This document shows positions 22,683-35,864 of a DNA stretch of 64,000 nucleotides, piece after piece. The stretch comes from Burkholderiales bacterium (GTDB lineage Bacteria; Pseudomonadota; Gammaproteobacteria; Burkholderiales; Burkholderiaceae_C): contig JAIOOS010000006.1 in assembly GCA_021414305.1 (NCBI GenBank), forward strand, positions 372,001 to 436,000, given 5' to 3'. Made by a program: the position numbers and the translations under genes. Below the pieces are notes generated by a model. The model ran no database searches. It saw only the letters and a list, made by a program, of their open reading frames with translations, and had not been told where the DNA came from. Positions within the stretch are counted from its first letter, which is position 1. Every line of letters begins with the position of its first letter.

Positions 22683-23690
22683 CTAAGGCGTGGCCTTGAG
22701 CAGGATGACCAGGTCGTTGAAGTCGGGCTCGGTCGGGCCGCCGTAGCCGTCGTCGAAGGTCAGCGTCCAGCCCTGGGCGAAGTCGCCGGTGATGCGCAGG
22801 GCCGGCGTGAAGATCAGCGGCGTGCTCGGCAGGGTGCCGGCGAGCACCGAGACCTGGAGCGCCGTGCCCGCGGCGAACAGGGCTCCCCCGTTGATGGGGA
22901 CGGCGACGCCGATCGTGTCGGAGCAGCCGTTCGCGAACACCGTCTGCACGATCGGCGCGGTGACGATCACCTTGTTGCCGGCCGCGGAGCACGAATGGCT
23001 GACCAGCGTCATCGTCACCTGCGAAGCCTGGGTGAGGCTGAGGATGCAGTTGCCGGTGGTGCAGCCGAGGCTCGTGGCCGGCGGCGCGACGACGATGGTC
23101 TGCGGGCTGGTGCTGGTCTTGCCGTTGGCGTCGGTCACGGTGAGGGTGACGGTGTAGGTGGAGAGCGGCGCGAGCGCGTAGCTGTGGCTCGCCGGGCTCG
23201 CGGCGGGAAGCGTGGTGCCGTCGCCGAAGTTCCAGGACCGCGACTGGAAGACGCTGCCTGCGTCGTAGGTGCTGGTGTCGGTGAAGGTGCAGTCCAGCGA
23301 CACGCAGCTCGCGGTGAAACTGGCGTGCGGCGCGGCCGGCACCGGCGGCGTGGTCACGCTGACCTGCCTCGTCACGGTGCCCCGCAGGCCGCGCGAGTCG
23401 ATGGCGATCAGGGTGACGGTGTAGGCGCTCGCCGCCGCATAGGCGTGCACCACGTTCTGCGTGGTGACGGTGGGCGTGGCGTCGCCGAAGTCCCAGATGT
23501 AGCCGATGAGGGTGTCGGCCGTGTCCTGGTTGGTGCTGAGGTTGGTGAAGGTGCAGGCCAGGTCCGTGCACGAGAAGGCGAAGTTCGCCGTCGGCGGGGT
23601 GTTCACCGGACCGGAGCTCGACCCCCCTCCGCCGCAGGCGGACAGGGCAACGACGAGAAGGCAGGAAAACGCTCTGAACCAGGTACGCAT
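22683..23690 (-). CDS. PKD-domain lipoprotein
   Basis: The start is ATG 23690, which has GGAGG upstream and gives a standard lipoprotein signal (MRTWFRAFSCLLVVALSAC, lipobox LSAC followed by a Gly/Ser tether). Two PKD-type beta-sandwich repeats follow: residues about 35-115 (YIWDFGDATPTVTTQNVVHAY) and 118-205 (SRSWNFGDGTTLPAASPASH). Each has paired cysteines (FSCTDLACTF; ASCVSLDCTF). The C-terminal 130 residues are a further beta-rich domain ending in an acidic EPDFNDLVILL segment. It is presumably outer-membrane anchored and may bind surface polymers or proteins; the function is unknown. It lies between the kinase and the catabolic operon and is probably its own unit. Confidence 0.85.
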   Translation of the reverse strand: MRTWFRAFSCLLVVALSACGGGGSSSGPVNTPPTANFAFSCTDLACTFTNLSTNQDTADTLIGYIWDFGDATPTVTTQNVVHAYAAASAYTVTLIAIDSRGLRGTVTRQVSVTTPPVPAAPHASFTASCVSLDCTFTDTSTYDAGSVFQSRSWNFGDGTTLPAASPASHSYALAPLSTYTVTLTVTDANGKTSTSPQTIVVAPPATSLGCTTGNCILSLTQASQVTMTLVSHSCSAAGNKVIVTAPIVQTVFANGCSDTIGVAVPINGGALFAAGTALQVSVLAGTLPSTPLIFTPALRITGDFAQGWTLTFDDGYGGPTEPDFNDLVILLKATP

Positions 23691-23774
23691 GGGGCCTGCC
23701 TCCACGGAAAGAACGTCAGTAGGCAATATGCGCGCCCGCCGACTCCTTTCGGTTCGCGTTCCCGACAGGCGGCG

Positions 23775-25037
23775 TCATCCGCCCGACGCGAGCTCCCGCT
23801 CCAGAACCTTCGGATTGTCCCGCCAGCGCTCCAGCCACTCCTGGGCCACGTCGCCCGGATACACGTCCTCGATGCCCTCCTTCAGCGCCTTGACGATGGC
23901 GCTCGCCAGCGCCGCCGGAGCGACCTTGGGCGGCGGCAGGTTCTGGTTCCATTCGTCGTCGATCGGCCCGGGGAAGACGTTGATCACGCGGATGCCGCTC
24001 GGCCGCATCTCGGCGCGCAGGCACTGCGCGAGCGAGTACGCCGCCGCCTTCGAGGCGGAGAAGGTGCCGTGCGGCGGAAAGTTGGACAGGGCGTAGACCG
24101 AGAGCAGGTTGACCCAGGCCGCGGCATGCGTCTCGCCGTCGGCGGAGCGACCCTTCAGCGCCGGGCCGAACTCCTGCGCCAGGCGCAGCAGGCCGAAGTA
24201 GTTGATGTCCATCTCCGCCTTGGCGACGTCGGTGCCGCGCCGCGCGGCGATGCCGAAGGCGCGGTGCACCTCGGCGTTGTTGACGACGATGTCGACCTTG
24301 CCGCCGATCTCGCCGGCGAGCTCGGTCACCGAGCGGCCGTTGGTCAGGTCGAGCGGCACCAGCGTCACCTGCGGCAGCGCGGTGACGTCGTCGAGGCCGG
24401 GCAGCTTCTTCCACGGCTCGGCGTGGCCCACCCAGACGATCTCGGCGCCGGCCTTGACCAGCGCCTTGACCAGCGCCTGGCCGACCTCGGTCTTGCCGTC
24501 GGTGACGAGGATCTTCCTGAACTTGGGGTCGCTGGTCATCTCGCGCAGCATCTTGTCGTCGGCCATGTTCGCTGTCTCCTCCGGCGGAAATCCGATCAGC
24601 ACCGCGGCGCCGGCGCGGTCGAGGCGGGCGCCGACGCGCACGCGCACGTCTCCGGGCCCCTGCGGCGATGGCACGTCGCCATGCAGGTGCACGATCACGC
24701 TGGGGCCGGCGTCGAGCCGCACCAGCCCCAGCCGCCACGGCAGCCGCTCGCGGTAGAACGGGTCGTTGCTGTGATGAAGCACGGTCTCGCTCAGCAGCGC
24801 GCCGGCGCCCGACTGCGCCGTCCACTTCAGCTCAGGCGAGAGGCAGCGGTGGCAGGCGTCGCGCGGCGGGTACTGCACCGCCTGGCAGCGCTTGCACACC
24901 TGCAGCTCGAACCGGCCCTCGGCCGCGGCCGCGGTCAGGCCCAGCGCGGTGCGGCCGCGCGCCCACGGCGGCAGGTTCATCTGCCGGGTGCGCAGCACCG
25001 GGTTCTTGCGCCGCGGCTTCATCAGCGGCATGGTCAT
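23775..25037 (-). CDS. DUF35 OB-fold - SDR fusion
   Basis: A 420-residue protein starting at ATG 25037, overlapping the thiolase stop (ATGA). Residues 1-155 are a DUF35 acyl-CoA-associated protein: a zinc ribbon (CKRCQAVQYPPRDACHRC) followed by an OB fold. From residue 158 (MADDKMLREM) a complete short-chain dehydrogenase/reductase follows: VTDGKTEVGQALV as cofactor loop (an unusual DGKTEVG in place of TGxxxGxG), VDIVVNNAEVH, a serine strand NLLSVYALSNF, the fingerprint Y-x-x-x-K varied to FSASKAA (Phe in place of catalytic Tyr) and INVFPGPIDDEW. The atypical cofactor loop and the missing Tyr suggest altered or lost dehydrogenase activity. DUF35 proteins normally pair with thiolase-fold partners, and the thiolase-like gene is just upstream. 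An internal start at 24566 may give the SDR part alone. Confidence 0.88.
   Translation of the reverse strand: MTMPLMKPRRKNPVLRTRQMNLPPWARGRTALGLTAAAAEGRFELQVCKRCQAVQYPPRDACHRCLSPELKWTAQSGAGALLSETVLHHSNDPFYRERLPWRLGLVRLDAGPSVIVHLHGDVPSPQGPGDVRVRVGARLDRAGAAVLIGFPPEETANMADDKMLREMTSDPKFRKILVTDGKTEVGQALVKALVKAGAEIVWVGHAEPWKKLPGLDDVTALPQVTLVPLDLTNGRSVTELAGEIGGKVDIVVNNAEVHRAFGIAARRGTDVAKAEMDINYFGLLRLAQEFGPALKGRSADGETHAAAWVNLLSVYALSNFPPHGTFSASKAAAYSLAQCLRAEMRPSGIRVINVFPGPIDDEWNQNLPPPKVAPAALASAIVKALKEGIEDVYPGDVAQEWLERWRDNPKVLERELASGG
24575..24582 (-). promoter_or_regulatory. internal ribosome binding site before the SDR half
   Basis: On the minus strand GGAGGAGA lies eight bases before an in-frame ATG at 24566, exactly where SDR homology begins (MADDKML). 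The site sits inside the DUF35-SDR reading frame with no stop between. It suggests that the SDR was once a separate gene or is still also translated on its own. Confidence 0.5.
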
Positions 25038-26242
25038 GACGCGCCCTCGCCCCCCGCCCTCTCCCTCGGCGCGGGAGAGGGAGCCCGACCCAGGATCACG
25101 GCGCCGGTGCACAGGCACCGGTCGTACGTGACCATGCCGAAGCCGGAGACCAGGCCGAGCTGCGCATCGGGCACGGCCCGCTCGCCGGCCTCGCCGGTGA
25201 GCTGGCGGATCGCCTCGGTCAGGCCGAGAAAGCCGCCGGCGCAGCCGGCCTGGCCGGCCGAGAGCTGGCCGCCGCTGGTGTTGTTGGCGAAGTCGCCGTC
25301 GTGCGTGAGCGTGCGCGCGCGCACGAAGGCCGGGCCCTCGCCCTTCTCGCAGAAGCCCAGGTCCTCGAACTGCAGCATCACCACGACCGGATAGTCGTCG
25401 TAGGTCTGCACGAAGTCGATCGCCTCGGGGCCGGCGCCCGCCTGCGCATAGAGCTCGTCGCGGTCGACGCGCCAGCCGCCGCGCAGCAGCACCGGGTCGT
25501 CGGCGTAGGCGTTGTGCCGCTCGATCGCGCCGCGCAGCAGGACGTGCGCCAGACCGAGGTCCTTCGCCCGCGCCTCGCTCATCACCAGGAAGGCCTCGGC
25601 GCCGGCGCAGGGCATGACGCAGTCGAACAGGTGGATCGGGTCGGAGATCGGCCGCGCCTGCATGTACTGCGCCAGCGTCAGCGGCACCTTGAACACGGCG
25701 TTCGGGTTCTTCAGCGCGTTGGCCCGCTGGGCGACGCAGATCCGGCCGAAGTCCTCGCGCGTCGCGCCGTACTCGCGCATGTAGGCGGCGGTGATGAAGG
25801 CGAAGATCGAGTTCGGCCCGCCCGAGCCGTAGGGATAGCTCGCGTCGCGCGCGAAGTGCGAGAAGCCGCCGAGCATCTGCCGGAACGACTCGACGTGATT
25901 GGCGTCGGCGGCGACGCAGGCGACGACGTCGGCGTCGCCCGCCTGCACCGCGCGCGCGGCGCGGCGCAGCGCCATCACCCCGGAGGCGCCGCCGGTCGGG
26001 ATGTGGTCGAGCCAGCGCGGCGAGAGGCCCAGGTGCTGGGTCACGCCGACGGCGGTGTCGGGCGAGAGCGAGAAGCTGCTGACGGTCAGGCCGTCGATCT
26101 GCTCCTTCTTCAGGCCCGAGCGCTCGACCAGCGCGTCGAGCGCCTGGCCGACGAACCAGTGCGCGCCGTGCGTCGAATAGCGCCGGTACGGCACCGTCAC
26201 CGGCACGGCGACGGCGACCCCTTCGTACGACGCGCGCGGCAC
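25034..26242 (-). CDS. thiolase-like protein (SCP-x type), catalytic residues altered
   Basis: A 402-residue protein starting at GTG 26242, one base after the ligase stop. The thiolase fold is clear (GDADVVACVAADANH, PISDPIHLFDCVMPCAGAEA, GDFANNTSGGQLSAGQAG). The nucleophilic Cys of true thiolases is missing (PTGGASGVMAL), and the catalytic GHP motif reads GQAG, with Gln for His; a C-terminal Cys region (DRCLCTGAVIL) remains. Lipid-transfer/thiolase-like proteins of this kind often work with a DUF35 partner, as in the Ltp2/ChsH2 retro-aldolase that cleaves steroid side chains, and the next gene encodes a DUF35 domain. A retro-aldol carbon-carbon cleavage of a CoA ester is therefore a better guess than classical thiolysis. 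Confidence 0.87.
   Translation of the reverse strand: MPRASYEGVAVAVPVTVPYRRYSTHGAHWFVGQALDALVERSGLKKEQIDGLTVSSFSLSPDTAVGVTQHLGLSPRWLDHIPTGGASGVMALRRAARAVQAGDADVVACVAADANHVESFRQMLGGFSHFARDASYPYGSGGPNSIFAFITAAYMREYGATREDFGRICVAQRANALKNPNAVFKVPLTLAQYMQARPISDPIHLFDCVMPCAGAEAFLVMSEARAKDLGLAHVLLRGAIERHNAYADDPVLLRGGWRVDRDELYAQAGAGPEAIDFVQTYDDYPVVVMLQFEDLGFCEKGEGPAFVRARTLTHDGDFANNTSGGQLSAGQAGCAGGFLGLTEAIRQLTGEAGERAVPDAQLGLVSGFGMVTYDRCLCTGAVILGRAPSPAPRERAGGEGAS
25057..25081. repeat. 9-bp perfect hairpin CCCTCTCCC/GGGAGAGGG at a gene junction
   Basis: CCCTCTCCC (25057-25065) and GGGAGAGGG (25073-25081) flank a 7-base loop. The element lies in the last codons of the thiolase-like gene, 20 bases before the next start at 25037. 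It has the look of the short REP-like hairpins scattered between genes of many Burkholderiales and Xanthomonadales. It encodes the odd, unconserved APSPAPRERAGGEGAS tail of the thiolase-like protein. Confidence 0.55.
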
Positions 26243-26243
26243 G

Positions 26244-28154
26244 TCAGGCGCCGTCGTCGCCGTCGTCGCCCTTGCCCGGCGGGGCCTCGGCGGGCGGGCG
26301 GGTCCGCGGGGCGGCGGGAACCCGCGGCTTGAGCACCGGCGGCGGCGCGATCCCGGCGATGCCGGCGAGCGCGCCCGGGTCCGGGCCGGTCAGCTCGCCC
26401 GCGGCGGTCAGCCCGAGCGCGCCGCTCAGCGTGCCCGCGCCGGTCAGGCCGCCGGCGCCGGTGAGATCGCCGGCGCTGGTCAGGCTGCCGAGCGCCGAGA
26501 CGCCGGCCTGGCCGGCGGCCGCATCGATGCGCTTCTGCCGGCGCTTGAGCATCCGCATGTCATGGCATTGCGGAGTGCCGGGCAGGCGCTTGGCCAGCTC
26601 GCGCAGCTCGCCGCGCTGCACTTTCTGCGAAGGCGTCAGGGGCAGGGCGTCGACGAAGGCGACATAGCCCGGCGCCTTGAAGTACGACAGCCGGGCCAGT
26701 GCGTGGCGGACGATGCTCGCCGCGATCTTCTCGGGCGGCGGCAGGTTGGCCGCCTTGCGCAGGACGATGCAGGCGAGCACCTCGTCGCCGCGCGTCGGGT
26801 CGGGCGTCGCCGCGACCGCGCTCGCCGCCACCGCGGGGTGGGTGTCCAGGACGCTTTCCACCTCGACCGCGGAGATGTTCTCGCCGCTGCGCCGGATCAC
26901 GTTCTTGCGCCGGTCGACGAAGCGGAAGTCGCCGTCGGCGCTGCGCCGCACCACGTCGCCGGTGTGGAACCAGCCGCCGGCCCAGGCGCCCTCGGTCGCC
27001 ATCTCGTCCTTCAGGTAGCCGAGGAAGAAGTCGCGGCGCGGGTCGTCGCCGGCCGCGCGCACCAGCAGCTCGCCGGGCACATCGACACCGGTGTCGGCGC
27101 CCCTCTCGTCGACGATCCGGGTCTCGACGAAGAAGTCGGCCCGGCCGAAGCAGCGCGTGCCGACGTGGCGCGGCTCGCGGTTGGCCATGATGCAGGCCGC
27201 CGCGCCGGTCTCGGTCATCGCCCAGGCCTCGAGCAGCGGCAGGCCGAAGCGCGCCTCGAAGTCGGCATGGTGGCGCGGGTCGACGCCGGCGCCGAAGCCG
27301 AAGCGCAGCTCGTGCATGCGGTCGGCCTCGCCGGGCGGCGCCGAGAGCAGCATCGCCGGCATCACGCCGAGGTAGTGCGCGACCGTGGCGCCGCTCTCGC
27401 GCACGCTTTGCCACCAGGAGCCCGGATGGAAGCGGTCGAGCTGGACGATGCAGCCGCCGGAAAGGATGGCGGCCATGGCCGAGAACGCGAGCGCGTTCAT
27501 GTGGCTGAGCGGCAGCGGCGTGATGAAGCGCTCGACGTCGGAGCGCACCGTGGCGAGCTCGCCGAGACCGAGGTACCACTCGCCGGCGCGCAGGAAGTAG
27601 CCGTTGGCGAGGCGGCAGCCCTTCGGCTTGCCGGTCGTGCCCGAGGTGTAGAGCAGCGCGCACTCGGTGTTGCGGCCGATCGGCTGGGCGACCGGCCGCA
27701 GGATCGCGCGCACCGGCGGAATGTGGCCCGAGACTTCGGGGCGGATCGTGTCGAGCTGGACGTTGGCGCTGCTCGCCGCTTCGCGCAGCGCGCCTTCGCG
27801 CCCCGGCATCACCACCGCCAGGGCGATCTCGCTGTGGCCGATGAGATAGATCAGCTCGGCCGCGCGCATGTCGGCGTGGATCGGCACGATGCTGATCCCC
27901 AGGCCGTTGAGGGCGAGCCAGTGGGTGAAGAACGCCGGCCGGTTCTCGAGCAGCAGGCCGACGCGGTGGCCGCAGGAATAGCCGGCGTTCGAATAGGCCT
28001 TGCGCAGCCTGTCGACCTCCCTGGCCACCTCGCGCCAGGTGCGCGGGCCGGGCTCGATGCCGTAGGCCTCGGCGGTGACCGGCTCGACATGGATGAAGGG
28101 GGCGTCGCCGCGCCGGGCCGCGACCCGCTTGAATTCGGCGTAGACAGTGGACAT
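26244..28154 (-). CDS. acyl-CoA ligase (AMP-binding) with repetitive tail
   Basis: A 636-residue protein starting at ATG 28154. The adenylate-forming motifs are complete: P-loop LLYTSGTTGKPKG (168-180), AWAMTETGAA, the WFHTGDVV hinge region, RRKNVIRRSGENIS and the C-terminal lysine in LTPSQKVQRGEL. It would activate a carboxylic acid to its CoA thioester with ATP, probably the entry acid or an intermediate of this pathway. The catalytic part ends near residue 540. The remainder is a low-complexity tail of short L-T/S-G-A repeats (GDLTGAGGLTGAGTLSGALG) and then Pro-rich sequence, ending in an acidic GDDGDDGA; this is not part of the family. The gap to the oxygenase beta gene is 9 bases. Confidence 0.92.
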   Translation of the reverse strand: MSTVYAEFKRVAARRGDAPFIHVEPVTAEAYGIEPGPRTWREVAREVDRLRKAYSNAGYSCGHRVGLLLENRPAFFTHWLALNGLGISIVPIHADMRAAELIYLIGHSEIALAVVMPGREGALREAASSANVQLDTIRPEVSGHIPPVRAILRPVAQPIGRNTECALLYTSGTTGKPKGCRLANGYFLRAGEWYLGLGELATVRSDVERFITPLPLSHMNALAFSAMAAILSGGCIVQLDRFHPGSWWQSVRESGATVAHYLGVMPAMLLSAPPGEADRMHELRFGFGAGVDPRHHADFEARFGLPLLEAWAMTETGAAACIMANREPRHVGTRCFGRADFFVETRIVDERGADTGVDVPGELLVRAAGDDPRRDFFLGYLKDEMATEGAWAGGWFHTGDVVRRSADGDFRFVDRRKNVIRRSGENISAVEVESVLDTHPAVAASAVAATPDPTRGDEVLACIVLRKAANLPPPEKIAASIVRHALARLSYFKAPGYVAFVDALPLTPSQKVQRGELRELAKRLPGTPQCHDMRMLKRRQKRIDAAAGQAGVSALGSLTSAGDLTGAGGLTGAGTLSGALGLTAAGELTGPDPGALAGIAGIAPPPVLKPRVPAAPRTRPPAEAPPGKGDDGDDGA

Positions 28155-28163
28155 TCGTTCGGT

Positions 28164-28658
28164 TCAGATGAAGAGTTGGACCGCCGGCAGCGCGGCGTCG
28201 CTGTTGATGAGGTCGACGCGCTTTTGCCGGATGCGCAGCGCGCCGGCCTCGACGACGAGGCGGTGCCAGCAGACGCCGACGAAGGTGTTCAGCTCGTCAC
28301 CCTGCGACTCGGTGTACTGGAACACGGTGCGCAGCAGCTGCTCGCCGGGCCGCGCCGGATCCGCGGGCTCGACGGTCGGCGTCTGCAGCAGGTGGAGGCT
28401 GCGCGTGGGCGGCTGCTGCGAGAAGGCGCGCGGGCTCTTCAGCCGCTCGATGCGCAGCTCGCGCAGCAGCTTGTCCTCGTAGAGATGCGAGGTGTGGTCC
28501 AGGCCTTCCGGCTGGTCGGGCACCAGCGGCACCCAGTAGATGGCGTCGTCGGTGAAGAGCGCGTTCCACTCCGCATAGCGCTTCTCGTCGAGCAGGCGCG
28601 CCTCGCGGACCACGAAGTCGACGAGCTGGCGCTCGCTGAAGGTCGTGCTGTCGCTCAT
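28164..28658 (-). CDS. aromatic-ring-hydroxylating dioxygenase beta subunit
   Basis: A 164-residue protein with the SnoaL/NTF2-like fold of Rieske dioxygenase small subunits: LVDFVVREARLLDEKRYAEW, LFTDDAIYWVPLV, SHLYEDKLLRELRIERL, and a C-terminal VGVCWHRLVVEAGALRIRQK. It starts at ATG 28658 and overlaps the alpha-subunit stop by four bases (ATGA), so equal expression is likely. The beta subunit stabilises the alpha3beta3 hexamer and has no catalytic role of its own. Its closest families are benzoate/anthranilate/salicylate-type and p-cumate/aryl-acid-type small subunits, but the substrate cannot be fixed. Confidence 0.92.
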   Translation of the reverse strand: MSDSTTFSERQLVDFVVREARLLDEKRYAEWNALFTDDAIYWVPLVPDQPEGLDHTSHLYEDKLLRELRIERLKSPRAFSQQPPTRSLHLLQTPTVEPADPARPGEQLLRTVFQYTESQGDELNTFVGVCWHRLVVEAGALRIRQKRVDLINSDAALPAVQLFI

Positions 28659-29983
28659 CGCCCGGCTCCCATCGCCATCGTCATGTAGCGCGCCCAGGCG
28701 CGGTACTGGTTGCGCATCGAGATCTCGCTCGTGCCGACGGTCGTGAGATCGCGCTCGCCGATCTCCGCCGGGTCGAAGTTGCGGTGCAGGCTGACCCAGG
28801 GATTGCCGCTGGCGTGCAGCCCCGCCTGGATGCCGCGATAGGCCTGCAGGTCGTCGTGGCCGACGACCGAGAACGGAGAGTTGATGAGGCGGCTGTACAT
28901 CGCCGTGCGCTGCAGCATCTCGGGCGGCGCGCCGGCGAGGCGGAAGGTCCAGCTTTCGACCAGCGTCTTGTCGACGGCGATCGGCTTGACCACGCGAATC
29001 GCCTGGATCGCGCCCTTGATCGTGAGGTTGGGGTAGTACACCGTGTTGTGCCGGGCCAGGCCGAGGATCCGCGCCGTGCGCTCTTCGCCGTAGGCCGCCT
29101 TCATGGCGGCGTCGTAGGCCGGCATCGCCGAGTACTTGCTGTGGATGCTGAAGTGCACGCCGGAGAAACTGTGCCCGTTGTCGAACACGCGCACACCCAT
29201 GTCCTCGAAAAACTTGTAATCGGACATGAAAGGCGTGAACTGTTCGATGGCCATGGGCTTGGCCAGATCGGCGGGCTTGTCGGCCCACATCCGCTTGGCC
29301 GTTCCGGCCGACGACTCGTGCACCACCATCGGATGCATGGTGTCGTTGAGGTTCTCGACGAACATCTTCCAGTTGCACTGGTGCAGGAAGCGGAGGCACC
29401 CGCCGGCGATCTCGAGCCGGCCCTCGGGCGAACGGTCGGCCATGTTGTCGATCGAGCTGAGCGACTCGCCGAAGTACTCCTCGAAGCCGGGGCCGGCGTC
29501 GTTGATCCTGGCGAAGATGAAGCCGCGGTAGACGCGCACGTTCTTCACCGCGACCAGGCCCTTGCCGCTCTCGCACTCGTGCACCGCGGTGCCGTCGTAG
29601 CCGTTCTTCAGCGGCATGTTGAGCAGCGACCCGTCGGTGCGGAAGGTCCAGGCGTGGTACGGGCAGCGAAAGTGCTTGCCGGTGTTGCCCGAGGGCGCGC
29701 TCACCAGGCGCGAGCCCTTGTGCGCGCAGCGGTTCATCAGCACCCGGATCGTGTCGTCCTGGTGGCGCACGACGATCAGCGGCTGGCCGGCGATCTCGTT
29801 GCGGATGTAGTCGCCGGGCTTCGGCAGCTGCGAGTCGTGGCCGACGTAGTTCCAGGTGTTGGCGAAGAAATGCTCCTGCTCGAGGGCGAACAGGTCGGGG
29901 TCGATGTAGAGATCGCGGTGCACCCGGTCGGGCTGCACCAGCGCCTGGATCGCCTCGGGATCGTCGCGATAGGAAGTGCTCAT
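28655..29983 (-). CDS. Rieske aromatic-ring-hydroxylating dioxygenase alpha subunit
   Basis: A 442-residue protein starting at ATG 29983. The Rieske [2Fe-2S] ligands are C86-x-H88 (NRCAHKG) and C107-x2-H110 (CPYHAWTF). The mononuclear iron site is in ENLNDTMHPMVVH, with H217 and H222 as ligands and D214 as the bridging residue. It uses two electrons and O2 to hydroxylate an aromatic ring or to demethylate/decarboxylate. No reductase or dedicated ferredoxin gene lies in the operon, so electrons must come from elsewhere; the ferredoxin reduced by the co-encoded IorAB is one candidate. The alpha/beta pairing places it with dioxygenases rather than homotrimeric monooxygenases. Confidence 0.93.
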   Translation of the reverse strand: MSTSYRDDPEAIQALVQPDRVHRDLYIDPDLFALEQEHFFANTWNYVGHDSQLPKPGDYIRNEIAGQPLIVVRHQDDTIRVLMNRCAHKGSRLVSAPSGNTGKHFRCPYHAWTFRTDGSLLNMPLKNGYDGTAVHECESGKGLVAVKNVRVYRGFIFARINDAGPGFEEYFGESLSSIDNMADRSPEGRLEIAGGCLRFLHQCNWKMFVENLNDTMHPMVVHESSAGTAKRMWADKPADLAKPMAIEQFTPFMSDYKFFEDMGVRVFDNGHSFSGVHFSIHSKYSAMPAYDAAMKAAYGEERTARILGLARHNTVYYPNLTIKGAIQAIRVVKPIAVDKTLVESWTFRLAGAPPEMLQRTAMYSRLINSPFSVVGHDDLQAYRGIQAGLHASGNPWVSLHRNFDPAEIGERDLTTVGTSEISMRNQYRAWARYMTMAMGAGR

Positions 29984-30004
29984 GTCCGCTCTCTGTTCTC
30001 CGCG

Positions 30005-31597
30005 TCAGGCGAGCGCGTGCCGCGCCAGCGTGGCGCTCAGCTTGCTGCCATGCTCGTCGGCCAGCGCCGCCTCGCGCAGCTCGCGCAGGGTGGCCGGCGC
30101 GAGCGCCGGGCCGGCCTTGCTCAGGGCAGCCATCACCGTTTCGTAGTTGCGCACGCCGCGCTCGTGGGTCTCGCTGTAGCCCTTGACCAGCCGCTGGCAC
30201 TGCGCCACCTCCGCCGCCAGCTCGGGATTCGTCGCCGCCGCCGCGGCGATGCGCGCCAGCCAGGCCTCGATCGCCGCGTTCTCGGCGGCGTAGCGCGTGG
30301 TCGCGCGGCGCCAGCGCTTCATGCCCGCGATCAGGTAGAGCAGGAGAAAGCCGCCGAGCGAGCTGGTGGTGACGACCCGGCCCTTCCGCGTGAAGCGCTC
30401 GACCGTGCTGCGCAGCCAGCCCGGGCGCTCGATCCGCCGGCCGATCGCCGCGGGCAGGGTCTCGGCGATCTCGCGCACGCCCGGATGCAGGTACTCGTCG
30501 ATCGCCAGCACCTGGTCGGCGCCGGAGCGGACCTCGGTCTTGACGCGCTCGAAGCGCGAGCCCCGCGTCTTCAGCCCGGCGACGCGGATCGTGTCCTCGT
30601 ACGACATCCAGAGCGCGAGATGACGCGCGGTCTCGTCGAGCAGCCGCCCTTCGGCGCCGGCGAGGGCGGCGATCCTGGCCATGCGGTCGAGGTAGAGGTC
30701 GGCGTAGGCCGGATCCTGGTAGTCGACGAGGCGGCGCACGCCTTCGCGCAGGATCGGCCGGGCCGACCCGGCGAAGCCGGTGTCGATCCGGCCGAGCAGG
30801 GCGCGGATGCGCGGATCGAGCGCGGCGCCCGCGGGCAGCGTCGCCAGGCCGGGCGGCGCCGGCGAACCCGGCGAAGCCGGCGGCGCATCGGTCGTGCCGT
30901 CGAGCGCAGCGGCGAGGGGCCGCGCGGCGGTATCGCCATGCGCCCGGTCCGCCATCGCCGGGTGATCGACCGCCCCGCCCTGCACCTGCGCGTACGCCGC
31001 GGCGAAGGCCTTGAGGCTGCTCGCCACGCCGACGCCGCCGCGGCTGATCGTCGCCTCGAACTGGGCCCGGCTGAACGGCAGCACGCCGGTGCCGGCGAGC
31101 GCGCCGAACAGCACCGCCCCGATGACGCTGCCGTTCTCCTCGGCCACCGCGGCCATGTCGAAGCGGACGAAGCGCTTCGCCGCCTGCGCCGCGTGCGCGA
31201 GCAGGGCGTCGCTGTCCACCCGGCCGTCGCCGAGCGCGCTCTTCTCGGCGATCGAGAAGACGCGGTGGGTCGAGGCGAGGAGCAGCGTCCGGTCGGGCGT
31301 GACCAGGCCGCGCTGGATCGCCCGGCCGCCTTCCATCAGCTCGGAGGCGAGGACGACGTCGACGTCGCCCGGCAGCGGCATCAGCGCCAGCACCGGATGG
31401 CCGCGGTCGGCCTCGGCCTGCTGCTGGGGATAGAGCTCGACGTAGTAGATGGTCGCGCCGGTGCGCTGGGCGACGCCGGGCACCGAGGTCGTCTGCGCCA
31501 GGTGGCCGTTGGCCTCGCCGAGGTCGACGATCCAGTCGGCGAGGACGCCGCCGCCCTCGCCGCCCATGGCCATGATCGCGATCTTCAGGGGTTGCAC
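30005..31597 (-). CDS. iorB: indolepyruvate:ferredoxin oxidoreductase beta subunit with DUF6537
   Basis: A 530-residue protein. The start is GTG 31597 (VQPLKIAIMAMGGEGGG), where family homology begins. Residues 1-190 are the gamma-type 2-oxoacid oxidoreductase domain (IAIMAMGGEGGGVLADW, TTSVPGVAQRTGATIYYVE, MPLPGDVDVVLASELMEGGR). A Pro/Ala-rich linker (about 215-250) leads to a long helical DUF6537 domain (about 260-500), typical of proteobacterial IorB, which is longer than the archaeal subunit of about 200 residues. With IorA it oxidatively decarboxylates aryl pyruvates to aryl-acetyl-CoA, reducing ferredoxin. The start lies 23 bases after the persulfide dioxygenase gene. Confidence 0.9.
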   Translation of the reverse strand: MQPLKIAIMAMGGEGGGVLADWIVDLGEANGHLAQTTSVPGVAQRTGATIYYVELYPQQQAEADRGHPVLALMPLPGDVDVVLASELMEGGRAIQRGLVTPDRTLLLASTHRVFSIAEKSALGDGRVDSDALLAHAAQAAKRFVRFDMAAVAEENGSVIGAVLFGALAGTGVLPFSRAQFEATISRGGVGVASSLKAFAAAYAQVQGGAVDHPAMADRAHGDTAARPLAAALDGTTDAPPASPGSPAPPGLATLPAGAALDPRIRALLGRIDTGFAGSARPILREGVRRLVDYQDPAYADLYLDRMARIAALAGAEGRLLDETARHLALWMSYEDTIRVAGLKTRGSRFERVKTEVRSGADQVLAIDEYLHPGVREIAETLPAAIGRRIERPGWLRSTVERFTRKGRVVTTSSLGGFLLLYLIAGMKRWRRATTRYAAENAAIEAWLARIAAAAATNPELAAEVAQCQRLVKGYSETHERGVRNYETVMAALSKAGPALAPATLRELREAALADEHGSKLSATLARHALA

Positions 31598-31620
31598 GAG
31601 GTCCTCGCCTGCTCTCGCGA

Positions 31621-32370
31621 TCAGCCCTGCGGGCTCTCGGTCATGCGGCCGCAGTAGGCCTGCATCTGCTCGGGCAGGTCCTTCGGGCAGACGCCGCACC
31701 GCCGGTTGCCCGGCACCGCCCAGTCGATGAACTTCGGGTAGGGCAGCTTCAGGCCGGCCATGATCCGCTCGAACTCCTCGCGCGTCTTGCCGACGCCCAG
31801 GCGGGGGTTGCGGCGCTTTTCCTGGCCGATCGAGGAGACCTGCCGATCCTGGTAGTCGTGCCCCGGATAGACCAGGCACTCGTCGGGCAGCGCGAACAGC
31901 TTGCCGGTGACGCTGTCGTAGAGAGTCCCGGCATCGCCCTCCTGGAAGTCGGTGCGACCGCAGCCATCGATCAGCAGCGCGTCGCCGGTGAAAACGCGAT
32001 CGTCGAGAGCGAAGGCGAAGTGGCCGGCGGTGTGGCCGGGCGTGTGCATCGGTCGCAGCGCCAGCTCGCCGACGGTGAAGGGCACGTCGTCGACCACGCC
32101 GAGGTCGGCGCACGGCAGGCGGTCGATCGCCGCCGCGGCGATCTTGCTGCCGACCTGCTGCCGCAGGTGCAGCGCGGCGGTGATGTGGTCGGCGTGAACG
32201 TGCGTATCGAGCGTCCACGCGAGCTTCAGCCCCAGGCTCGCCACCGTCGCCAGGTCGCGATCGATCGAATTGACCACCGGATCGATCAGCACCGCCTGGC
32301 CGGTTTCCTCGCAGCCGAGCAGGTAGGTGTAGGTACTCGACAGGGGCTCGAACAACTGGCGAAAGAGCAT
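31621..32370 (-). CDS. ETHE1-like persulfide dioxygenase (metallo-beta-lactamase fold)
   Basis: A 249-residue protein starting at ATG 32370 with GGAGA upstream. The metallo-beta-lactamase motifs are THVHADHITAA, MHTPGHTAGH, FTGDALLIDGCGRTDFQEGD and VYPGHDYQD. The GRTDFQxGD and the Asp and His pattern match mononuclear-iron persulfide dioxygenases of the ETHE1/Blh type, which oxidise glutathione persulfide to sulfite. A C-terminal NRRCGVCPKDLPEQM is usual in bacterial members. It is unexpected inside an aromatic/CoA operon, between the iorA and iorB genes. Either it handles persulfide or another thiol (CoA) adduct, or it acts as a thioesterase-like glyoxalase II relative; I favour sulfur chemistry. 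Confidence 0.88.
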   Translation of the reverse strand: MLFRQLFEPLSSTYTYLLGCEETGQAVLIDPVVNSIDRDLATVASLGLKLAWTLDTHVHADHITAALHLRQQVGSKIAAAAIDRLPCADLGVVDDVPFTVGELALRPMHTPGHTAGHFAFALDDRVFTGDALLIDGCGRTDFQEGDAGTLYDSVTGKLFALPDECLVYPGHDYQDRQVSSIGQEKRRNPRLGVGKTREEFERIMAGLKLPYPKFIDWAVPGNRRCGVCPKDLPEQMQAYCGRMTESPQG

Positions 32371-32401
32371 GGCGATCTCCGGTGCGGGGGCGAGGCCGGC
32401 C

Positions 32402-34549
32402 TCAGAACGCGAGCCGGGCGCGGGCGCGGGCGTCGCGCCGCTGCAGCCAGCCGATCACGGCCCCGCGCAGCCGCTCGGCGAGCCGGTCCCAGCCGCTCGG
32501 ATTGCTGACGATGCGCGCCTTGTAGAACGAGGGGCAGAGCACCGCCGCGTGCGAGACCTCGCCGCAGACGCCGCAGCCGACGCAGCTGTCGAGCACGGTC
32601 GCGACCGGATCGGTGCGCAAGGGATCCGGATTCGGCTTGATCGAGAGCGAGGGACAGCCCGAGAGGCGGATGCACGAGTGGTCGCCGGTGCAGGTGTCGG
32701 CGTCGACGCCGAAGCGCTCGCGCACCACCCGCTCGCCGCGCGCCACCGCCGCCTTCACCAGCGGCTTGACCCGGCGCTGCCGGTTGAGCTGGCATTCCGA
32801 CTGCGCGATCAGCACCTTCGGGCCCTTCTCCTTCGAGGTCAGGGCCTCGCGCAGCGCGTCGCGCATGCCGGCGACGTCGTAGGTGCGGCGGATCGTGCGC
32901 ACCCAGTCGACGCCGACGCCGCGCACCGCCTTCTCGATCGCATGGCCGGTGCTGCGCGTCGGATTGGCCAGCTTCGAGGAAAGCAGGTCCTGGCCGCCGG
33001 TGGCGGAGGTGTAGTTGTTGTCGACGACGATCGTCAGGTTGTCGCTGCGGTTGAACACCGCGTTGGCGATGCCGCTGGTCAGGCCGTTGTGCCAGAAGCC
33101 GCCGTCGCCCATCACCGAGATCGCCCGCTTGCTCGCGTCGACGGTGAAGGCGGAGGCGCCGGCCGTGCCGAGGCCGTAGCCCATGGTCGTGTTGCCGATG
33201 TGGAACGGCGGAAGGATCGAGAACAGGTGGCAGCCGATGTCGGCGCTGACGTGATGCGCGCCGAGCTCCTTCTCCACCAGCTTCATCGCGCTGAAGATCG
33301 GCCGCTCCGGGCAGCCGGTGCAAAAGCCCGGCGGGCGGCCGTGCACCACCTCGGCGAGCGGCTTCTCCATGGCGAGCGGAATCACCCGCGCCGGCTTCGG
33401 CGGCAGCGTCGCCGGCTCGACCCGGCCGTAGTGCTCGAGGAAGGCGCGCGTGCCCTTCAGCACCTCGGCGCCGGTGTACTCGCCGGCGGGCGCCAGGAAG
33501 TCCTTGCCGTGCAGTACGGTCTGCAGGTCGGCCTGGCGCAGCACGGTCGCCAGGGTCTGCTCGATGAAGTTCGGCTGGCCCTCCTCGACCAGCAGCACCG
33601 CCTTCTTGCCGGCGCAAAAGCGCGTCACCTCGGCCGGCACCACCGGGTAGGCGACGTTCATCACGTAGAGCGGGATCTTCGAATTGCCATAGACGTCGGC
33701 CAGGCCGAGCCGCTCGAGCGAGCGCACCAGGGTGTTGTAGTTGCCGCCCTGGACGACGATGCCGATGTCGCTCGCCCCCTCGGCGAAGAACTCGTTGAGC
33801 CGGTGCTCCTCGATGTAGCGCAGCGCCGCCGGCCAGCGCTCCTTGATCTTTTCCTGCTCGTGCACGTAGGTCGCGGGCGGCAGGGCGATGCGCGCGGTGT
33901 CGCGCCGGGGTGCGGCCAGCGCGTCGCCGGCGAGGAAGCTCGCGGTCCGGTTGGCCTCGGCGACGAACCGGCCGTGCACGTGGCAGGCGCGGATGCGCAG
34001 CATCAGCATCACCGGCGTGTGGCTCGCCTCCGAGAGCGCGAAGCCGTGCTTCACCGCCGCGACCATCGAGGGCAGGTTCGGCCGCGGGTCGAGCAGCCAG
34101 ATCTGCGACTTCATCGCGAACGCGTGGCTACGCTCCTGCATGATCGAGGAGCCCTCGCCGTAGTCCTCGCCGACGATCACCAGCGCGCCGCCGGTGACCC
34201 CGCCCGAGGCCAGGTTGGCCAGCGCGTCGGCGGCGACGTTGACGCCGACCGGCCCCTTGAACGTGACCGCGCCGCGCAGCGGGTAGTTGACCGAAGCCGC
34301 GAGCGTCGCCGCGGCGGTGGCCTCGCTGGCCGAGCTCTCGAAGCGGATGCCGTGCTCCGAGAGGATGTCCTGGGCGTCGGCGAGCACGTCCATCAGGTGC
34401 GAGATCGGCGCGCCCTGGTAGCCGGCGACGTAGGACACGCCGGACTCGAGCAGCGCCTTGGTGACGGCAAGGATGCCTTCGCCGCGGAACACTTCGCCCG
34501 CGCCGAGCCTGAGCTTCTTCACTTCCTCGACGAACGATCTCTCGGCCAT
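32402..34549 (-). CDS. iorA: indolepyruvate:ferredoxin oxidoreductase alpha subunit
   Basis: A 715-residue protein starting at ATG 34549 (MAERSFVEEVKKL), first gene of the operon. The pyrimidine-binding domain (about 20-200) has AGYQGAPISHLMD and FKGPVGVNVAADALAN. The TPP-binding domain (about 400-570) has the GDG...NN motif (MGDGGFWHNGLTSG and VDNNYTSATGG) and FCTGCPERP. The C-terminus carries two 4Fe-4S clusters of ferredoxin type (CTGDHSCIRLSGCPSL; SCVGCGVCGEVSHAAVLCPS). It oxidises aryl pyruvates (indole-, phenyl-, hydroxyphenylpyruvate) with CoA and ferredoxin. In aerobic proteobacteria this enzyme is linked to aromatic amino-acid and indole-acetate metabolism. Confidence 0.93.
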   Translation of the reverse strand: MAERSFVEEVKKLRLGAGEVFRGEGILAVTKALLESGVSYVAGYQGAPISHLMDVLADAQDILSEHGIRFESSASEATAAATLAASVNYPLRGAVTFKGPVGVNVAADALANLASGGVTGGALVIVGEDYGEGSSIMQERSHAFAMKSQIWLLDPRPNLPSMVAAVKHGFALSEASHTPVMLMLRIRACHVHGRFVAEANRTASFLAGDALAAPRRDTARIALPPATYVHEQEKIKERWPAALRYIEEHRLNEFFAEGASDIGIVVQGGNYNTLVRSLERLGLADVYGNSKIPLYVMNVAYPVVPAEVTRFCAGKKAVLLVEEGQPNFIEQTLATVLRQADLQTVLHGKDFLAPAGEYTGAEVLKGTRAFLEHYGRVEPATLPPKPARVIPLAMEKPLAEVVHGRPPGFCTGCPERPIFSAMKLVEKELGAHHVSADIGCHLFSILPPFHIGNTTMGYGLGTAGASAFTVDASKRAISVMGDGGFWHNGLTSGIANAVFNRSDNLTIVVDNNYTSATGGQDLLSSKLANPTRSTGHAIEKAVRGVGVDWVRTIRRTYDVAGMRDALREALTSKEKGPKVLIAQSECQLNRQRRVKPLVKAAVARGERVVRERFGVDADTCTGDHSCIRLSGCPSLSIKPNPDPLRTDPVATVLDSCVGCGVCGEVSHAAVLCPSFYKARIVSNPSGWDRLAERLRGAVIGWLQRRDARARARLAF

Positions 34550-34652
34550 GCCTTTTCCCGGGTCTCGAACCACGATGTTCGCATGTCCGGCGGGCCCTAC
34601 ATTAGAGGCCGGCCGACAACATGCGCCGAGAAGAAGCACAGAGGAGGAATTC

Positions 34653-35864
34653 GTGAAGGACGAGCTCGTTTACCCGCGCGAGAACTCGCTCGGCGCCATC
34701 ACCCTGGTGCTCGGCCTGATCGGCTGGCTGCTGATCGTCGTCGGCACCTTCGGCCTGGCCCTGGTCTACCTGCTGTTCGGCTTCGTCTTCTACGTGTTCG
34801 CGCATTCGGCGTTCATCTCCTGGCTGCGCGGCAACGCGGTGCTGCTCTCGCAGGCGCAGCTTCCCGACCTGCGCGCCCGCTTCGAGGACTGCTGCAAGCG
34901 GCTCGGGATCGAGGAGCCGCCCGAGGCCTACGTGATGCAGGGCGGGGGCATGCTCAACGCCTTCGCCACCCGCTTTCTCGGCCGCAACTACGTGGTGCTG
35001 CTCTCGGACATCGTCGACGCGATGGACGGGCATCCCGACGGCGTGAACTTCTACTTCGGCCACGAGCTCGGCCACATCCGCCGCCACCACCTCACGGGCA
35101 ACCTGCTGCGCGCGCCGGTGCTGTGGCTGCCGCTGCTCGGCGCCGCCTACTCGCGGGCCAAGGAATCGACCTGCGACCGGCACGGCCGGGCGTGCTGCAG
35201 CTCGCCCGAATCGGCGGCGCGCGCGCTGGTGGCGCTGGCCGCGGGCGCCGAGCGCTGGAAGCAGGTCGACCTGCCCGCGTTCGCCGGCCAGGCGGCCCTC
35301 TCGAGCGGCTTCTGGATGTCGTTCCACGAGCTGACCAACGGCTACCCGTGGCTGACCAAGCGCACGGCGCGCGTGCTCGACCCGGCCGCGCCGATGCCCG
35401 GCCGCAACCCGTTCGCCTGGTTCCTCGCCCTGTTCGTGCCGTACGCCGGGCGGGCCGGCGGCGGGCTCGGCGGCGTGATCGTCGTCGTCGCCGTCATCGG
35501 CGTCCTCGCCGCGGTCGCCTTGCCGGCCTATCAGGACTACACCGTCCGCGCCCGGCTGCAGGGCGCGTACCTCGGCAGCGAGCCGGTGCGCCAGGCGCTC
35601 GGCGACTGGTTCGTGAAGCACGACAAGGAAGCGCCCTCCTCGCTCCAGGAGGCCGGCATCCCTCCGGCGCTGCCCGATGGCAGCACCCTCGCCTTCGACC
35701 CCGAGCAGATGGTGCTGACGGTCGAGACGCCGAACGGCGACCTGGTGTTCGTGCCGGAGAACCTGAACGACCCGAAGCTGGTCTGGCGCTGCATCCCGGG
35801 CGAAGGCGTCAAGCGGGCGACGTTGCCGCCGGCGTGCCGGGAGGAAGTCGCACCGCCGCGCTGA
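34653..35864 (+). CDS. M48 metalloprotease fused to a type IV pilin-like module
   Basis: A 403-residue protein. The start is GTG 34653, with AGGAGGA 4 bases upstream. Two N-terminal transmembrane helices (about 13-50) precede an M48 peptidase domain with zinc motif H137-E-L-G-H141 (YFGHELGHIRRHH) and a later glutamate ligand near E171. From residue 273 the protein continues as GGVIVVVAVIGVLAAVALPA and then YQDYTVRARL, which closely copies the N-terminal helix of type IV pilins but lacks the cleavage site and Glu5 (no G-FTLIE). A pilin-like beta region of about 90 residues follows (SSLQEAGIPPALPDGSTLAF). HtpX-like membrane proteases degrade misfolded membrane proteins; the role of the pilin part is unknown. 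It is transcribed away from iorA. Confidence 0.88.
   Translation: MKDELVYPRENSLGAITLVLGLIGWLLIVVGTFGLALVYLLFGFVFYVFAHSAFISWLRGNAVLLSQAQLPDLRARFEDCCKRLGIEEPPEAYVMQGGGMLNAFATRFLGRNYVVLLSDIVDAMDGHPDGVNFYFGHELGHIRRHHLTGNLLRAPVLWLPLLGAAYSRAKESTCDRHGRACCSSPESAARALVALAAGAERWKQVDLPAFAGQAALSSGFWMSFHELTNGYPWLTKRTARVLDPAAPMPGRNPFAWFLALFVPYAGRAGGGLGGVIVVVAVIGVLAAVALPAYQDYTVRARLQGAYLGSEPVRQALGDWFVKHDKEAPSSLQEAGIPPALPDGSTLAFDPEQMVLTVETPNGDLVFVPENLNDPKLVWRCIPGEGVKRATLPPACREEVAPPR

Follow-up and report, generated by a model that had tools for sequence, protein, structure and literature searches.

The question raised by this locus is which compound is degraded by an eight-gene operon that joins a putative indolepyruvate oxidoreductase (IOR) pair, iorA and iorB, to a Rieske oxygenase, a coenzyme A (CoA) ligase and a thiolase-like protein, and at which step the pair would act. 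The operon is located at positions 23775-34549 of a window of 64,000 nucleotides (the whole stretch analysed) from a Burkholderiales bacterium (assembly GCA_021414305.1, contig JAIOOS010000006.1, positions 372,001 to 436,000), and consists of eight intact open reading frames (ORFs), all on the minus strand and spaced by gaps of 1-31 bases or overlaps of 4 bases. Judged by homology, the cluster is the iadA-B-D-E-F-G-H part of the iad locus for degradation of indole-3-acetate (IAA), accompanied by a persulfide-dioxygenase-like gene, and it is probable that IorAB converts isatinate to 2-aminobenzoyl-CoA and likely does not act on an arylpyruvate.

The Rieske alpha subunit (iadD, 28655..29983) matched Variovorax IadD (PDB 9o71) with 848 bits over 435 residues, as compared to 158 bits for the next non-IadD enzyme, while the beta subunit (iadE, 28164..28658, overlapping iadD by 4 bases) matched IadE (PDB 7yls, 8h2t and the beta chain of 9o71) with 234 bits, followed by 45 bits for the next match. 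The iorA gene (32402..34549) is predicted to encode a thiamine pyrophosphate- and Fe-S-binding alpha subunit of 715 amino acids, and iorB (30005..31597, with a GTG start at 31597 and a 21-base gap before iadD) a beta subunit of 530 amino acids with POR and DUF6537 domains (PF01558, PF20169) and 697 bits to the profile NF006179/PRK08312 (cut-off 348). The two genes have been equated with iadA and iadB, exclusive markers of iad-like operons (PMC9613470); both markers are present in the window, with iadF, iadG and iadH downstream as in iad loci. The iadF gene (26244..28154), placed 9 bases after iadE and 1 base before iadG, encodes an AMP-forming acyl-CoA ligase (PF00501/PF13193) with a repetitive C-terminal tail. 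Identity to the locus of V. paradoxus NBRC 15149 (L045) was 79% for iorA, 67% for iorB, 79% for iadD, 70% for iadE, 66% for iadF, 82% for iadG and 83% for iadH. In a set formed by the best 80 of 588 IadD relatives, which leans to Variovorax (81 loci with the window), the usual order was MarR, iorA, iorB, iadC, iadD, iadE, iadF, iadG, iadH, iadI and iadJ.

These results answer several claims of a preliminary description of this DNA. The tight packing it had reported agrees with the coordinates, the family names of the eight genes were backed by Pfam and NCBIfam, and the aerobic CoA-dependent route for an indolic compound that it had proposed corresponds to the iad locus. It had found no described pathway for the cluster, and had named prior assignment to a known pathway as what would overturn that view; the IadD and IadE scores and the equivalence of iorA/iorB with iadA/iadB place the cluster in the iad auxin-degradation locus, whose pathway is already described. 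As for the conserved co-occurrence it had suggested as a check, the order Rieske alpha and beta, ligase, thiolase and DUF35-SDR (short-chain dehydrogenase/reductase) recurs in Variovorax, Ramlibacter, Achromobacter, Azoarcus, Roseibium, Ruegeria and Sulfitobacter, and thus reflects more than chance. The persulfide-dioxygenase-like gene stood between iorA and iorB in three congeneric genomes (the window genome, G001 and G003) of the 60 searched.

Of the IAA-route intermediates that the surveyed literature names, isatinate (2-aminophenylglyoxylate) alone is a 2-oxoacid, and the gene neighbourhoods of IorAB point to this compound. A survey of isatin hydrolase in 399 genomes of the order (E<=1e-60) revealed 20 places in 17 genomes, and the 19 places outside the window genome were taken with their flanks. 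One or both of iorA and iorB occurred in 12 of these 19 stretches (12 of 16 genomes), and three of the 12 (L124, L136 and L139) had no IadDE match in the stretch. In L139, iorA, iorB and isatin hydrolase are consecutive, with an overlap of 8 and a gap of 58, while L124 contains iorA, iorB, iadG, iadH and iadI. The third stretch, L136, carries a styrene/indole-type flavin monooxygenase (571 bits to 7z4x; 220 bits to the StyA model, under its cut-off), a flavin reductase, an SDR, isatin hydrolase, an amine-oxidase-like protein, an AraC regulator, iorA, iorB and a 2-aminobenzoyl-CoA monooxygenase-type gene. By its content, this set would lead from indole through isatin and isatinate to 2-aminobenzoyl-CoA, a series in which indolepyruvate has no evident place.

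Among 72,556 plasmid records, IadB-type IorB was detected in 50, isatin hydrolase in 57 and both in 40, with many near-duplicate records inflating the proportion of 40/50; by genus label, counted by eye, the pairing held in 14 of 18. In 22 of the 40 shared records, no more than 12 kb separated IorB from the isatin hydrolase place with the best score. As a control, fused IOR was detected in 155 plasmid records, and isatin hydrolase in none of the 60 listed of these 155. IorAB and isatin hydrolase occurred together, without an IadDE match in the stretch, in plasmid stretches of Burkholderia multivorans (L142), Novosphingobium (L143), Caballeronia (L144), Paracoccus (L145), Sulfitobacter indolifex (L146), Pukyongiella (L147) and the actinobacterium Tsukamurella (L149). 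In S. indolifex, the iad locus (L012) has no iorAB in its stretch, and a module of isatin hydrolase, MarR, iorA and iorB lies apart on the same plasmid. Phylogenetic analysis of 31 IorA sequences, with fused IOR as a very distant outgroup, placed the window IorA with those of L124, L136, L142 and L144 in one clade of 12 rows (100/99). The longest ingroup branch (1.55, as compared to a median of 0.18) belonged to a Delftia sequence (L148), the sole IorA without isatin hydrolase on its record. This divergent IorAB, on a Delftia acidovorans plasmid, lies near IS1071 within a Rieske/protocatechuate-dioxygenase/maleylacetate-reductase cluster, and perhaps acts on another arylglyoxylate or arylpyruvate. 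In addition, a seemingly shortened IorB match (224 residues, 68% identity) was observed on plasmids of Hydrogenophaga and of Variovorax from linuron soil (MN536506, NZ_CP044974, NZ_CP044977, NZ_CP044551, NZ_LR594677 and NZ_LR594690).

Published work offers independent hints. In Bradyrhizobium japonicum, IAA raised the expression of iorB 7.6-fold and of iorA 30.7-fold (PMC3788728). In Variovorax, C8H7NO3 (the formula of isatinate) and C7H7NO accumulated strongly only in strains overexpressing iadC-K2, which were built in a background lacking genes 77-53 (PMC12633357). Since iadA is gene 72 and iadC is gene 70 (PMC9613470), iadB would be gene 71 and the iadC-K2 strains would be devoid of iadAB; the build-up could then represent isatinate leaking through 2-aminobenzaldehyde where IadAB is missing, and could equally be an effect of overexpression. 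A 2018 review counts the role of isatin among the unanswered questions and reports that Cupriavidus SHE depends vitally on a 2-aminobenzoyl-CoA cluster (PMC6221969). No enzyme for the fate of isatinate is named in the literature on IAA and indole breakdown surveyed, where iadA and iadB mark auxin degraders and carry no experimentally tested function, and none of the open-literature titles and abstract openings listed in searches names isatinate as a substrate of an IOR-type enzyme. Taken with the neighbourhoods, and with somewhat less assurance than for the window itself, we favour the view that IadAB and its orthologues are a new isatinate:ferredoxin oxidoreductase forming 2-aminobenzoyl-CoA, and that isatin hydrolase and IorAB form a mobile module which, in Proteobacteria and Actinobacteria, links the breakdown of indole, isatin and auxin straight to the 2-aminobenzoyl-CoA pathway, without passing through free anthranilate and at a lower cost in ATP.

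The residues of IadG and IadH bear on the steps that would produce isatin. IadG (25034..26242, with a GTG start at 26242 and a 4-base overlap with iadH) has a thiolase fold; a lipid-transfer-type protein (9myr) and Ltp2 (6ok1) were among its best matches to solved chains, which also included the benzoylsuccinyl-CoA thiolase 7pxp. IadH (23775..25037) consists of a zinc-ribbon/OB (DUF35) part fused to a degenerate SDR (PF12172, PF01796, PF00106). In SDR proteins, activity depends on a catalytic Tyr and a nucleotide-binding motif. In an alignment of 66 IadH rows (15 of 81 loci dropped), the Tyr is replaced by Phe or Trp in 62 rows and kept in 4, and the nucleotide-binding motif looks degenerate. 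All 38 rows of the IadG alignment (43 of 81 loci were dropped for missing, broken or short matches) contain a YDDY motif and a Gly at the place of the thiolase nucleophilic Cys. The catalytic motifs of retro-aldolases are YDHF in Ltp2 and YDCY in Sal, which also has Gly at the Cys place (PMC12329534). Because of YDDY, Gly-for-Cys and the lost SDR Tyr, IadG is predicted to be a retro-aldolase on dioxindole-3-acetyl-CoA instead of a thiolase, and IadH its DUF35 partner with a doubtful dehydrogenase part; a retro-aldolase role for the thiolase-like/DUF35 pair, raised earlier, thus appears probable.

The proposed route would start with the oxygenation of IAA by IadDE, published for Variovorax (PMC12633357), with electrons supplied here by a reductase other than IadC. 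IadJ, encoded in a second cluster, would give dioxindole-3-acetate, as published for Variovorax, and IadF would form its CoA ester. With the DUF35 part of IadH holding it in place, IadG would split this beta-hydroxyacyl-CoA in a retro-aldol step into isatin and acetyl-CoA, and IadI, an isatin hydrolase by homology, would open isatin to isatinate. Oxidative decarboxylation of isatinate by IorAB would then yield 2-aminobenzoyl-CoA and CO2 along with reduced ferredoxin, and the CoA ester would be processed further by a 2-aminobenzoyl-CoA monooxygenase/reductase-type protein encoded in the second cluster. The preprint on Variovorax (PMC12633357) regards IadF as an acyl-CoA synthase and IadG as an acetyl-CoA acetyltransferase; it assigns dehydrogenase roles to IadH (an alcohol dehydrogenase) and IadJ, and considers that IadI may be a broad amidase. 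The residues described above question the ketothiolase and alcohol-dehydrogenase roles of this 2025 source.

The second cluster was found on the same contig (C7), about 99-122 kb from the operon, which occupies C7:396-407 kb. The genes iadI and iadJ (C7:295-297 kb) thus stand outside the operon, at a distance of about 99 kb; IadI has 87% identity to its V. paradoxus counterpart and matched isatin hydrolase A (5nna) with 372 bits, and the IadJ homologue showed 70% identity. They are followed by a second Rieske alpha gene (55%), a solute-binding protein, ABC genes and an AMP ligase. This IadD-like alpha gene, beside iadJ at L101:11064-12371 (C7:294.1-295.4 kb), had no adjoining beta gene that could be seen, while its counterpart in L054 and L123 has one. 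Further along are the 2-aminobenzoyl-CoA monooxygenase/reductase-type protein (NF006101, 1410 bits), a MarR-like protein with 31% identity to IadR, an enoyl-CoA hydratase, an acyl-CoA dehydrogenase and a benzoate-CoA-ligase-like protein (362 bits, slightly below the cut-off of 375). The monooxygenase was considered as a mark of iad genomes and discarded, being present in 41 of 42 iad genomes and also in 103 of 189 family genomes without IadD; in the family, 11 of 11 genomes with IadD (E<=1e-190) carry it (Fisher p 0.0017, kinship ignored), and it offers weak support only, since it is also common where IadD is absent.

Several observations weigh against isatinate as the substrate. In Variovorax iadC-K2 strains devoid of iadAB, anthranilate was fully restored (PMC12633357), which implies that IorAB is not needed for anthranilate there, and the C8H7NO3 build-up may come from overexpression alone. 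Isatin hydrolase occurred without iorAB in 7 of the 19 stretches (L125, L128, L133, L137, L138, L140 and L141), of which L138 has only 3 kb on one side and L125, L133 and L137 have iorAB at another place of the same genome. On plasmids, 17 of 57 records had isatin hydrolase without IadB-type IorB, including Roseibium and Labrenzia plasmids of the iad-carrying kind, and 10 of 50 had IorB without isatin hydrolase, such as the Delftia record. The NF006101 model is named salicylyl-CoA 5-hydroxylase/oxidoreductase, not 2-aminobenzoyl-CoA, and the benzoate-type CoA ligase of the second cluster means that 2-aminobenzoyl-CoA could come from anthranilate instead. In addition, the family names of IorA and IorB still read indolepyruvate, and these names, together with the founding biochemistry of IOR (the Pyrococcus furiosus enzyme as cited in PMC3788728) and the position of iorB upstream of iadD in 72 of 81 loci, favour a pair at the front of the pathway that would turn tryptophan-derived indolepyruvate into indole-3-acetyl-CoA for the iad route. 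This front position seems unlikely: IadDE acts on free IAA (PMC12633357) and the repressor that binds before iadA is released by IAA (PMC9613470). IAA is downstream of indolepyruvate, and with free IAA as its starting compound the published pathway does not run through indolepyruvate. The pair also accompanies isatin hydrolase in stretches without the IAA oxygenase, no aminotransferase is annotated in the Azospirillum stretch with iorAB and iad genes (the Caballeronia stretch has one of class V), and a separate fused indolepyruvate oxidoreductase gene is present elsewhere in the window genome. Formation of arylacetyl-CoA from arylpyruvates by IorAB, as the preliminary description had it, is thus probably wrong here.

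No iadC orthologue was found in the genome or operon (best PDR-type matches of 42, 42 and 41%, on C9, C29 and C2), and no iadR, the best MarR in the genome having 29% identity (E 1.5e-11) and none lying beside the operon; these absences are provisional because the genome is 93.7% complete, and with neither IadC nor IadR found the operon can be called only a putative IAA-degradation operon in this strain. Together with the split of the locus in two, they would suit a decaying or non-functional iad copy that has lost iadC, iadR and contiguity, which we regard as a rather improbable explanation. All eight ORFs are intact, and of the 72 loci with iorB upstream of iadD (71 of 80 and the window), iadC is absent from 11 and present in 61, so that it is not universal in iad-like loci. 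In the IadD tree, one clade (100/99) unites the window with L078 and L014, and the iadC-less label, carried by 15 rows of which four have no iorAB, requires 9 changes, at least 4 of them forced by supported branches. Congeners G001 and G005 likewise have no iadC before iadD, iorB directly precedes iadD in all three congeneric genomes with IadD (the window genome, G001 and G005), and the order iorA, metallo-beta-lactamase (MBL) gene, iorB is shared by G001 and G003. In V. paradoxus, iadC is dispensable for IAA removal and required for root rescue (PMC12633357). As a speculation, IorAB-reduced ferredoxin may supply the Rieske oxygenase electrons in the iadC-less lineage, an idea kept at that level because four loci without iadC (L042, L053, L058 and L069) have no iorAB either in the 6-10 kb covered upstream of iadD; no reductase gene was found among 9 selected ORFs scanned from 5 of the 15 iadC-less loci, which were a TctC receptor, an alcohol dehydrogenase, PALP, an M20 peptidase, TRAP genes, Fic, HsdM and one ORF without a family. 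A different substrate class was considered as well. The products of ipfABDEF include Rieske subunits, a CoA ligase and a DUF35 protein. With the thiolase-type ipfD/ipfE pair of ibuprofen degradation (PMC9195938), they suggest a route in which the Rieske enzyme dihydroxylates an arylacetyl-CoA and the thiolase-like pair removes the acyl side chain to give a catechol. This route was dropped as very improbable: the Rieske subunits match IadDE, with 848 bits against 158 for the next solved non-IadD enzyme (the distinction from Ipf itself being made by description), and isatin hydrolase and IadJ homologues are present in the genome.

The gene between iorA and iorB (31621..32370, 249 amino acids, with gaps of 31 and 23 bases to iorA and iorB) encodes an ETHE1-type MBL protein that matched the solved persulfide dioxygenases PDB 8zbd and 4ysb with 303 and 259 bits. 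It was not found at E<=1e-90 in the remaining 57 of the 60 genomes, three congeners included; in the congener G005, iorA adjoins iorB without it. No pathway role is evident for this gene. The tail of iadF contains an 18-bp repeat at 26381-26497 that encodes Leu-Thr-Gly-Ala-Gly-like hexapeptides, and IadF has 636 amino acids here as compared to about 540 in Variovorax; ORFs of 680 and 626 amino acids suggest the same in L014 and L078. The latter locus very probably corresponds to the G001 assembly (the monooxygenase is at C28:2395-4695 in both) and was counted once; at L078:5518-9326, Fic and HsdM genes on the opposite strand part iadE from iadF. The operon is flanked by a gene for an M48-family peptidase (34458-35864), divergent from iorA, whose C-terminal part resembles a type IV pilin segment, and immediately downstream by a lipoprotein-like gene with a PKD domain (22683-23726).

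The window locus is ordinary in part, being a split, iadC-less iad locus, and what is new is the likely role of IorAB, a widespread enzyme pair. If IorAB takes isatinate, an unassigned step in bacterial auxin and indole disposal would be filled, a single end module would serve the catabolism of both auxin and indole, a CoA ester instead of anthranilate would carry the carbon out, and the indolepyruvate annotations of this subfamily would mislead.

Compared with the iad locus of V. paradoxus CL14 and Achromobacter, the operon has the same order of iadA, B, D, E, F, G and H, with the 66-83% identity to NBRC 15149 given above, and the genome also contains iadI, iadJ and the transporter genes; it differs in lacking iadC and an adjacent MarR gene, in having iadI, iadJ and the transporter about 99 kb away, and in its additional persulfide-dioxygenase-like gene and repetitive iadF tail. 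IadG shares with the steroid retro-aldolases Sal-Shy and Ltp2-ChsH2 the thiolase fold, the YDxY/F motif, the DUF35 partner and the Gly replacing the nucleophilic Cys, whereas its third motif residue is Asp instead of Cys or His, and the DUF35 part of IadH is fused to a degenerate SDR and not to a hydratase. The indolepyruvate ferredoxin oxidoreductases of archaea and anaerobes, and the fused bacterial form, have the same alpha/beta architecture and cofactor domains as IorAB. The window pair is set apart from them by the score of iorA against the IOR_alpha equivalog TIGR03336 (270 bits, far under the cut-off of 651), by its link to isatin hydrolase and by the occurrence of fused IOR as a separate gene; a PDB search with IorA gave no match at E<=1e-5. 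The overall chemistry proposed for IorAB is that of phenylglyoxylate:acceptor oxidoreductase, the multi-subunit Pad enzyme of anaerobes, and the two systems, likened by description only, would share the conversion of an arylglyoxylate and CoA to an aroyl-CoA and CO2.

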